Shown piece by piece: positions 13,861 through 38,938 of a DNA stretch of 48,811 bases. Location: NCBI GenBank assembly GCA_023701125.1, contig JAMPXO010000025.1, positions 1-48,811 on the forward strand, read 5' to 3'. Within the stretch, counting starts at the first letter, position 1, and every line of letters begins with the position of its first letter. The stretch is from Vicinamibacteria bacterium (GTDB lineage Bacteria > Acidobacteriota > Vicinamibacteria > Fen-336). Below the pieces are notes generated by a model. It did no database searches, had not been told where the DNA came from, and was given only the letters and a program-made list of their open reading frames with translations. The position numbers were made by a program, and so were the translations under genes.

Positions 13861-13948
13861 GTTCCAGCGCCGGGAAACCCGGCGCTGGTCCCGCAGGGGC
13901 TACGTCGCCAACGGCGGCTCCTCCGCCCCCGCACCCCCAGGCGGGTTC
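13861..13948 (-). repeat. Double-hairpin dispersed repeat, copy R1
   Basis: Read on the minus strand this intergenic copy contains the GGGGGTGCGGGGGCGGAGGAG module, a first hairpin (GCGGGGGC at 13932-13925 with GCCCCTGC at 13900-13893, one mismatch) and a second perfect 11-bp hairpin (CCAGCGCCGGG / CCCGGCGCTGG, 13864-13888, AAA loop). It is almost identical to copy R2. It fills the gap between the convergent kinase and transporter-like genes, where it might also act as a bidirectional terminator. Confidence 0.8.
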
Positions 13949-13953
13949 GCCCC

Positions 13954-36698: not shown

Positions 36699-37469
36699 AT
36701 GACGATGCTGGAAGTGCGCGATCTCCACGCGAACGTGCAGGGCCGCGAGATCCTCAAGGGCCTGAGCCTGACCGTGAACCCCGGCGAGGTGCACGCGATC
36801 ATGGGCCCCAACGGCTCGGGCAAGTCGACGCTCGCCCACGTGCTGGCCGGTCGCCCCGGCTACGAGGTGACGAAGGGCGAGGTGCTCTACCAGGGCAAGG
36901 ACCTGCTGGGGCTCGCGCCCGAGCAGCGCGCCCGCGAGGGCGTGTTCCTGGCGTTCCAGTACCCGATCGAGGTGCCGGGCGTCAGCAACGTCTACTTCCT
37001 GAAGGCCGCCGCCAACGCGATCCGCAAGCACCGCGGGCTGCCCGAGCTGGACGCGATGGACTTCCTCGCGCTGTGCAAGGAGAAGGCGGCGCTGGTCGAG
37101 CTGCCCGAGGAGCTGACCCGGCGCGCGGTCAACGAGGGCTTCTCCGGCGGCGAGAAGAAGCGCAACGAGATCTTCCAGATGGCCGTGCTCGACCCGGCCC
37201 TCGCGATCCTGGACGAGACCGACTCCGGGCTCGACATCGACGCGCTGCGGATCGTCGCCGAGGGCGTCAACAAGCTGCGCACGCCGCAGCGGGCGATCAT
37301 CCTGGTCACCCACTACCAGCGCCTGCTCGACTACATCGTGCCCGACTTCGTCCACGTCCTGGCCGACGGCCGCATCGCCACCTCCGGCGGCAAGGAACTG
37401 GCCCAGGAACTGGAGGCGAAGGGTTACGCCTGGCTCGAGAAGGAGCCGGCGCCCGCGGGGACGCGGTGA
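36699..37469 (+). CDS. sufC: Fe-S cluster assembly ATPase SufC
   Basis: This 256-residue ABC-type ATPase has Walker A GPNGSGKST, a Q-loop (LAFQYPIEVPGV, a SufC hallmark), signature motif FSGGEKKRNEI, Walker B ALAILDETDSGLDID and the switch His in LVTHYQRLL. It powers the SufBCD scaffold. The start is 22 bases after sufB; either of two close ATG codons (36699, 36705) could be used, the first having the better-placed GAGAG. The stop overlaps the GTG start of sufD. Confidence 0.98.
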   Translation: MTMLEVRDLHANVQGREILKGLSLTVNPGEVHAIMGPNGSGKSTLAHVLAGRPGYEVTKGEVLYQGKDLLGLAPEQRAREGVFLAFQYPIEVPGVSNVYFLKAAANAIRKHRGLPELDAMDFLALCKEKAALVELPEELTRRAVNEGFSGGEKKRNEIFQMAVLDPALAILDETDSGLDIDALRIVAEGVNKLRTPQRAIILVTHYQRLLDYIVPDFVHVLADGRIATSGGKELAQELEAKGYAWLEKEPAPAGTR

Positions 37470-38938
37470 GCGCAGTGGAATCCCCCACGCCGGTCCCGGA
37501 ATCCGCTGCCCCCGGGTCTGGGCGGAGGAGCGAGAGCGACGAAGCCCAGCGGCCCGAGGGCCGGGATTCACTCCCGGCCCGAGCCGCCGATGACAAGGAA
37601 GCTCTTCGCGAGGCCACGCGTCGCGACGAGGTCGCGCCGTGGCTGGCCGCGCTGGAGGCCGGGCGTCGCCGCGGCGAGCCCGAGTGGCTGGCGTCGCTGC
37701 GCGACGAGGCCTCGGCCCGCTTCGCCCGCCTCGGCTTCCCCTCGACCCGCGACGAGGCCTGGCGGCAGACGAGCGTCGCGCCGCTCAGCCGCACCCGCTT
37801 CGACCACGCGACCCGCGGCGCGATCGACGACGCGCTGGACGCGCTGCCCGGCTTCCGCTTCGGCGGCGCCTTCGCCGGGCGCGAGGCGGTGTTCGTCAAC
37901 GGCCGCTTCATGCCCGAGCTGTCGAGCCTCGGCAAGCTGGCGCGGGTCCGCGTGCGCTCGCTGCGTCACACGCTGCAGGAGGACCCGGACGTGCTGGCCG
38001 GACTGATCGGCGCCGCGGCCGACGACGAGAAGCACCCGTTCCTGGCCCTGAACGCCGCCGCCTTCCAGGACGGCGCGCTGGTCGAGGTGCCCGAGCGCTA
38101 CGCCGTGCGGGCCCCGATCCACCTGCTGTTCATCAGCACCGGCGCCGTCGCCAGCCACCCGCGCACGCTGATCGGCATGAACCGCGGCGCGCAGGCGACG
38201 ATCGTCGAGAGCTACGTCAGCCCGAGCGGCGCCCACAGCTTCTGCAACGCCGTCAGCGAGGTGCTGATGGGCGACGGCGCGGTGCTCGACCACGTGCGCG
38301 TGCAGTCGGAGTCGGGCAAGGCGTTCCACGTCGCGACCACCGCGGCTCGCCTCAGCCGCAACGCGTCGTACACGAACCACTCGTTGTGCCTGGGCGCGGC
38401 GATCGCCCGCCACGACCTCGTCGTCCGGCTCGAGGGAGAAGGCGCGTCGACCGAGCTCAACGGCCTGTTCGCCTCGGACGACGCCCAGCTCCACGACACC
38501 CACTCGAAGATCGACCACGTGGCGCCCCACGGCACCTCCCGCGAGCTGTACAAGGGCGTGCTCGGCGGTCGCTCGCGCGGCGTCAAGAACGGGCTGATCG
38601 TGGTCCGCCCCGGCGCCCAGAAGACGGACGCCCAGCAGGCCAGCAAGAACCTGCTGCTGTCGCGCGAGGCGCTCGTCCACTCGACGCCGCAACTGCTGAT
38701 CCACGCCGACGACGTCAAGTGCAAGCACGGCGCGACCACCGGCCAGCTCGACGACGTGGCGCTGTTCTACCTGCGCTCGCGCGGCCTCGACGAGGCCGCT
38801 GCTCGCGCGCTGCTGGTGTGGGCCTTCGCCTCGGACGTGGTGTCGAAGCTCAAGGTCGCCGCGGTCCGCGAATCGGTCGAGCGCTTCCTGCGCGAGCGGC
38901 TGGGCGCGACGGGCGCCGTGCCGGGAACGCCGGCGTGA
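37466..38938 (+). CDS. sufD: Fe-S cluster assembly protein SufD with a repeat-derived N-terminal extension
   Basis: This 490-residue protein starts at GTG 37466, overlapping the sufC stop (GTGA). The family region runs from about residue 50 to the end, with PSTRDEAWRQTSVAPL, HPFLALNAAAFQDGALVEVP, NHSLCLGAAIARHDLVVRLEGEGASTELNGLF and the conserved DDVKCKHGATTGQLD. The first 45 or so residues (SAVESPTPVPESAAPGSGRRSE onward) are low-complexity; most of them are encoded by repeat element R4 and are not part of usual SufD. No internal start with a clear ribosome-binding site is seen that would skip the repeat, but an internal initiation is possible. Confidence 0.93.
   Translation: MSAVESPTPVPESAAPGSGRRSESDEAQRPEGRDSLPARAADDKEALREATRRDEVAPWLAALEAGRRRGEPEWLASLRDEASARFARLGFPSTRDEAWRQTSVAPLSRTRFDHATRGAIDDALDALPGFRFGGAFAGREAVFVNGRFMPELSSLGKLARVRVRSLRHTLQEDPDVLAGLIGAAADDEKHPFLALNAAAFQDGALVEVPERYAVRAPIHLLFISTGAVASHPRTLIGMNRGAQATIVESYVSPSGAHSFCNAVSEVLMGDGAVLDHVRVQSESGKAFHVATTAARLSRNASYTNHSLCLGAAIARHDLVVRLEGEGASTELNGLFASDDAQLHDTHSKIDHVAPHGTSRELYKGVLGGRSRGVKNGLIVVRPGAQKTDAQQASKNLLLSREALVHSTPQLLIHADDVKCKHGATTGQLDDVALFYLRSRGLDEAAARALLVWAFASDVVSKLKVAAVRESVERFLRERLGATGAVPGTPA
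37509..37585 (+). repeat. Double-hairpin dispersed repeat, copy R4 (inside sufD)
   Basis: This more divergent copy carries GGGCGGAGGAGCG and GCGACGAAGCCC, a first hairpin CTGGGC (37518-37523) / GCCCAG (37544-37549) and a second perfect 9-bp hairpin GGGCCGGGA / TCCCGGCCC (37558-37580, loop TTCAC). The layout equals R1-R3: a G-run plus GGCGGAGGAG module, then two adjacent stems. It lies in the 5' part of sufD in the sense direction. Confidence 0.65.

Follow-up and report, generated by a model that had tools for sequence, protein, structure and literature searches.

Repetitive extragenic palindromic (REP) elements and REPINs are short, palindromic, dispersed repeats of high copy number, situated mostly outside genes near gene ends and sometimes within genes; GTAG and CGTC superfamilies are recognised, the CGTC REPs being without known transposase (PMC3733652). 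REPINs are inverted doublets tied to RAYT transposases, and Rickettsia palindromic elements (RPE) are in-frame inserts in unrelated protein genes, as described in PMC3116915 and PMC10969869, respectively. The repeat family described here occurs at four sites, R1 to R4, in a 48,811-nucleotide stretch from a Vicinamibacteria bacterium of the phylum Acidobacteriota (assembly GCA_023701125.1, contig JAMPXO010000025.1, positions 1–48,811), hereafter the window. With a probability of about 0.7, its copies are genus-restricted, short, non-autonomous mobile repeats, REP- or RPE-like, that occur alone or with two to five units set head to tail.

In the broad sense the family is REP-like: a dispersed palindrome of high copy number and mostly extragenic location. 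REPs are hairpins of 20–40 bp, often inverted dimers, whereas the main-type unit here is about 81–85 bp long, consists of two unlike hairpins and is single or in direct arrays. A conserved purine internal loop is present. A lone hairpin headed by a free 5' tag, GTAG/GGAG or CGTC, is not seen; no Y1 transposase was found in the genus. The likeness to RPE, which also lie in frame within protein genes that are unrelated, is one of description; RPE belong to another phylum and are ~150 bp long. Miniature inverted-repeat transposable elements (MITEs) of insertion sequences (IS) are similar in being non-autonomous, in short complementary ends (here GGGTT/AACCC) and in presumed mobility in trans; they differ in that here no parent IS was found among the families searched and no target duplication is consistent. 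Dispersed structured repeats in a bacterium are also represented by the rmsd repeats of Nannocystis, which are like multicopy single-stranded DNA; the difference is that no intact reverse transcriptase was found in three genus genomes (PF00078 search). No such family is reported for Acidobacteriota among the literature matches listed. The earlier note knew of no named family with this consensus, and Rfam likewise gives no match over the window copies at E ≤ 10 and nothing at gathering score in five further repeat loci. The best reading is that the family is new as a family, REP-like in behaviour and not REP by the tests of RAYT partnership and inverted doublets.

Copy number, turnover and placement

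The host genome (G000) is a draft of 5.41 Mb in 254 contigs, with an estimated completeness of 95%; the window is its contig 151. The two other genus genomes compared, G001 and G002, are drafts of 92 and 85% completeness. Within the window the 12-base module, with up to two mismatches, is not enriched (24 found, 22.7 expected). In the host genome the exact core 12-mer occurs 212 times versus 5 times for its reversal, and the exact hairpin-1 pattern 182 times versus none reversed. The family lies beyond chance, because whole-genome counts decide, not module counts in the window; the 212 exact 12-mers also answer the concern of the earlier note that the copies might be unique to the window. The covariance-model search that it proposed finds the family in three of 40 genomes, all of the host genus, with at least 114 matches in the host, at least 49 in G001 and at least 67 in G002. 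None of the matches listed falls in the other 37 relatives, 11 of which represent other genera of the bacterial family. In a sample of 396 phylum genomes that does not contain G001 and G002, the 395 besides the host all lack the exact hairpin-1 pattern, as do viral contigs; the R2 sequence has no match in plasmids or phages. Among the genomes searched, the repeat family is restricted to the genus. Copies may be undercounted, because several contigs end within or beside a unit; densities are biased upward, because the own loci (those of the host genome) were mostly picked for holding matches.

Insertion sites differ between sister species. Sites were compared where both flanks were found in the relative: 11 of the host against G001 and 14 loci (15 rows) against G002, with one locus common to both comparisons and thus 24 distinct loci. 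A copy is detected in the relative at one of the 24 (L015:19594-19755) and at none of the other 23. In the reverse comparison the host carries no copy at any of four G001 sites, one of which differs by 526 bases, and carries one at one of two G002 sites. G001 and G002, the closer pair, 90–97% identical in well-aligned stretches, share two of three G001 sites. Because insertion sites differ between sister species, the family is or was mobile: it has moved. For 98 of 112 own copies and 15 of 21 G002 copies the nearest neighbour at another locus is of the same species, which suggests separate bursts per species.

Copies sit both between genes and as in-frame gene inserts. Genes were called with a codon-usage caller made for this analysis, not benchmarked. 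The count leaves out R4 and, from a total of 92 arrays, the 11 that lie close to locus ends. Of the remaining 81 arrays, 28 lie within open frames, 15 of them in sense and 13 in antisense orientation, and 53 are intergenic, between convergent (23), co-directional (21) or divergent (9) genes, 5 of the 53 overlapping a call and being ambiguous; with the same gene calls a random position is genic in 90.8% of cases. Of seven intragenic inserts set against the G002 orthologue, three (L026:12169, L122:6532, L122:14024) correspond to exact gaps of 28 residues and the half unit L026:11430 to a gap of 19 residues; the remaining three, including R3, align less cleanly. Stop-free in at least four of six frames are 128 of 133 copies. 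Intragenic copies may be survivors of less selective insertion, since most frames of the unit contain no stop and its length is often a multiple of three.

The arrays, and the intergenic enrichment near gene ends with its 23 convergent versus 9 divergent cases, would suit a non-mobile motif, a conserved host RNA or terminator spread by ordinary duplication. That explanation is extremely improbable: no copy is detected at 23 of the 24 loci compared, and copies lie in frame in unrelated genes, take either orientation to genes, and include a filled/empty pair between G001 and G002.

Unit structure, arrays and ends

The main-type unit reads, in order, G-run/GGGGGC strand, GGAGGAG, variable loop, CGACGNA, GCCCCC strand, hairpin 2 and CCCG end. 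In hairpin 1 a conserved purine internal loop, with GGAGGAG opposite CGACGNA, breaks a G-C stem; this loop may represent G.A pairs, tandem and spaced, in the helix. The 3' strand of hairpin 1 contains GNAG, usually as GTAG or GGAG, with hardly any exception. In hairpin 2 as many as 11 pairs follow the GGG/CCC base; its sequence drifts while pairing is kept. In R2 hairpin 1 occupies 18926-18962 (+), with the stem CGGGGGC/GCCCCCG, the internal loop GGAGGAG/CGACGTA and then a short apical stem; hairpin 2 occupies 18964-18999 (+), where the GGG/CCC base carries a long stem that covaries, CCGGCGCCGGG/CCCGGCGTCGG.

Covariation supports the pairing. Copies for alignment were selected by containing GGGCGGAGGAG, so that its conservation is by construction, while CGACGNAG was not a selection criterion. 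Of 59 motif hits, 55 passed the filter (CCC downstream, complete flanks) and 48 entered alignment A2, the rest being five tandem mates, an end copy and a candidate for 3' truncation (L025:18039). Alignment A3, made from sequence only, holds 46 copies, R4 and one tandem mate being left out. In A3 both-side changes occur in 10 of 24 pairs versus 4.7 ± 1.2 in shuffles (0 of 500 reach 10), covariation is 0.166 versus 0.075, and pairing drops to 38–49% in slid controls. For alignment A4, 138 matches (135 of them distinct) were fitted to the model, towards which A4 hence leans; it has both-side changes in 17 of 24 pairs and 95.8% of 3,187 cells paired. G.U cells in the stems outnumber A.C cells (59 versus 12), as expected for the stated strand, and this gives a hint that one defined strand, G-run first, folds as single-stranded DNA or RNA.

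Two further subfamilies are relevant to the helix. Subfamily B comprises 10 full copies, all own, with CC/GG in place of the main-type GA/GA. The R4-type keeps the loop GGAGGAG/CGACGRAG on a different stem, CTGGGC/GCCCAG; three full copies and one half are present in 0.79 Mb of own sequence and four copies in 1.21 Mb of G002. A G-C flipped variant is found in 17 of 21 G002 copies; the C-G form is found in 101 of 117 own copies. Divergent main-type copies with a different hairpin 2 lie at L012:7418-7589, L015:19593-19764, L016:13469-13553, L028:9359-9530 and L124:10841-10925, possibly further subfamilies. By-eye comparison with the consensus of attC-like sites and of the hammerhead core gave no fit, and both candidates were rejected.

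Clustered per strand, the 90 own arrays in 0.79 Mb comprise 66 single units, 19 doubles, 3 triples, one of four and one of five, so that 24 of the 90 are same-strand arrays of two to five units. Unit spacing is 84–90 in 25 of 32 cases. Opposite-strand neighbours within 300 bases are absent from 96 own and 22 G001 arrays; two pairs are present among 25 of G002, each an R4-type unit beside a partial unit. In these (L166:18851-18972 and L162:11728-11847) the two parts are in opposite orientation, 8–9 bases apart. Arrays probably grow locally, because adjacent units are more alike (median identity 0.964, n=28) than units of different loci (0.807). Many first units are preceded by a remnant of a unit end (GGAACCCGNY). 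By eye, nine copies are truncated at the 5' end, and another three are candidates for 3' truncation.

The 5' truncations, the partial units leading many copies and the folding of the sense strand recall retrotransposition, in which the RNA of one or more units would be reverse-transcribed into new sites as in short interspersed nuclear elements or retrons. This is highly improbable: the excess of 5' truncation is small, most truncation points cluster in hairpin 1, and the reverse transcriptase domain PF00078 was not found in G000 and G002, while the G001 match (G001:C12:262115-262766) has internal stops.

The unit ends, GGGTT and AACCC, are complementary. In a flank table covering 69 of 72 arrays, upstream GAC is followed by downstream A in 20 of 22 cases and upstream GTC by downstream T in all four, with the middle base repeated (post hoc Fisher p 0.021 and 0.0016, respectively). 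The coding insertion L026:12169 has CGAC on both sides, versus one CGAC at the matching G002 site. These features suit a MITE of a DDE-type IS, with imperfect inverted ends and a target duplication of 3–4 bp (GWC or CGWC). Such an origin is unlikely, since most flanks have no duplication, no longer element with these ends is seen by eye among the solo halves (1.22 Mb, own and G002), PF01609 (DDE_Tnp_1) is absent from the three genus genomes, and PF00665 (rve) gives single matches in G000 and G002, near contig starts, with no unit in the fetched loci. No parent IS with the same ends was found among PF01609, PF00665 and IS110; many other IS families were not searched. PF07592 (ISAzo13) also gave no match, a result that is uninformative because the control was silent too.

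Candidate mobilising enzymes

The hairpins, the high copy number and the nearly invariant GNAG are consistent with a classical REP/REPIN family whose RAYT (Y1, HUH) transposase is merely missing from the assemblies, and related tyrosine transposases are encoded by some Acidobacteria, according to PMC3733652. PF01797 is absent from all three genus genomes at E ≤ 1, with control genomes positive. The arrays are same-strand, not inverted doublets, and GNAG forms part of hairpin 1, on its 3' side, and no free 5' tag. A RAYT-moved family is accordingly quite unlikely.

PF04986 (Y2_Tnp, IS91-type) matches once in G000, twice in G001 and not at all in G002; matches above the curated cut-off, two in number, occur in both G000 and G001. 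The remnants are C-terminal and lie in broken frames, at L168:1409-1847 (G001), L207:291-599 (G000) and L208:6502-6808 (G001). Read in the matching frame, the match is a transposase C-terminus (27.4 bits), with the upstream part frameshifted or missing; an overlapping frame of 275 residues has no Pfam match. The G000 and G001 remnants are 89% identical over 103 residues, and the second G001 place 74% over 92. One G001 repeat unit (L168:1409-1487) lies in frame inside a remnant; the remnant loci of the own genome and of the second G001 place hold no unit.

Rolling-circle elements as a class fit direct arrays and a lack of target duplication. An IS91-type (Y2, HUH) transposase, now left only as remnants or unassembled, could move the units, and its transfer mode would suit the head-to-tail arrays, the hairpins, the 5'-truncated copies and the missing target duplication; the frames read as the C-terminus of a real transposase in both G000 and G001. 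This is rather unlikely. Only C-terminal, partly frameshifted fragments are present, the N-terminal part of the profile is unmatched, G002 has none, and the sole unit near a remnant lies inside it, as units do in other genes.

An IS110-type transposase is present in all three genomes, in one or two copies each; the three scanned are full length. They lie at L184:910-2019 (G000 contig 211), L185 and L186:916-2064, one in each genome. Identity of the own copy with the G001 and G002 copies is 67–68%; between the latter two, which have common surroundings, it is 97%. The own copy aligns with them over the gene only. No unit is found in the fetched IS110 loci at E < 0.5. The enzyme is therefore only a lead. 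IS110-type enzymes use structured RNA. A bolder proposal is that of a mobile repeat class in which a non-Watson-Crick loop of tandem G.A pairs serves as recognition code and movement in trans is due to a non-Y1 enzyme, for which the full-length IS110-family (DEDD) transposase of all three species is the boldest candidate; the proposal is a long shot, weakened by the Y2 remnants as a competing mover.

The preferred interpretation remains that of short non-autonomous mobile repeats. The folded strand would be what the mobilising enzyme, encoded elsewhere, recognises; the internal loop may be its recognition mark, and arrays would then grow by local duplication. Several results weigh against this interpretation. 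No mobilising enzyme was found among the families searched. A permutation test of the flanks for a general target-site duplication gives nothing beyond noise, and in the closest filled/empty pair (G001 L195 versus G002 L152) about 8 target bases are replaced, not duplicated. Several empty-site alignments are rough (net −57 to +43 bases), and old insertions are retained, one locus being common to the host and G002 and two to G001 and G002. As regards folding, further pair types in A3 are not clearly above shuffles (21 versus 18.8; 48 of 500 reach it), the G.U excess leans on two pairs (40 of 59; without them 19 versus 11), and cell counts are not independent events because copies share descent.

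The earlier note had proposed a REP/MITE-type family mobilised in trans. Dispersal of the copies and differing insertions between species bear this out in part, and movement in trans would be the mode; the suggested RAYT partner is not supported, because no Y1/RAYT transposase was found in the three genomes.

The four copies in the window and the meaning of the family

Direct reading and the covariance model place all four copies in one repeat family, as the earlier note had it and at the sites that it gives. R1 (81 nt, 13858-13938, −), R2 (82 nt, 18919-19000, +) and R3 (85 nt, 32816-32900, +) are of the main type and score 90.0, 90.7 and 84.1 bits with the covariance model, for which they were among the training copies. 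R4 (37513-37589, +) was not; it belongs to a separate, shorter subfamily with the same core and is matched weakly (34.4 bits, E 3e-4). Of the layout described in the earlier note, R4 is without the 5' G-run. R1 and R2, thought to be nearly identical, are both main type but match at only 73 of 83 aligned columns (88%); R2 and R3 match at 71 of 86, and R4 matches R1–R3 at 57–62 of 87–92 columns.

R1 lies between convergent genes: it is one base past the stop of the gene 12348-13856, which encodes a histidine kinase, and the gene 13954-17166 (−) ends some 16 bases away; 5' of R1, in its own orientation, stands GAACCCGCCT, which resembles the 3' end of a preceding unit. R2 lies between two minus-strand genes, is preceded 5' by GAACCCGAC, likewise resembling the 3' end of a preceding unit, and is absent from the syntenic site in the sister species G002. 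R3, of the G-C flipped variant common in G002, is antisense within the open frame of a TPR/cyclic-nucleotide-binding gene (32194-35085, −), the G002 orthologue of which is without a copy. R4 is within the N-terminal open frame of a sufD-like gene (37475-38938, +), near its start, and has the stem CTGGGC/GCCCAG, with the loop GGAGGAG/CGACGAAG kept. No copy is detected at the corresponding G002 site, where ~27 extra bases are kept. In keeping with the statement that no transposase is encoded nearby, none of the window's 36 gene calls (made with the script of this analysis, one scanned as a longer frame) matches a transposase domain of Pfam.

The gene surroundings are as follows. Two TPR and cyclic-nucleotide-binding proteins, at 30527-31630 and 32194-35085, are encoded close together in opposite orientation. 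Iron-sulphur genes of the SUF type (SufB-like, ABC ATPase, SufD-like, class V aminotransferase, NifU-like, FeS assembly protein) and then an Rrf2 regulator occupy 35216-41672. A single frame at 19014-22631 (−) carries DUF255/thioredoxin-like and aldo/keto reductase domains, either a fusion or a missed boundary. The closest named record of a window protein is from the Acidobacteria metagenome-assembled genome isolate ACD2, with 89% identity.

For the host, in-frame copies mean inserts of 28 residues in otherwise conserved proteins. With CGTC-type REPs (PMC3733652) it is already a question how short palindromes can spread when no transposase is dedicated to them; the family described here is another case, from a different phylum. 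Its genomes encode few transposases among the families searched and offer filled/empty pairs, which makes a short list of movers testable.

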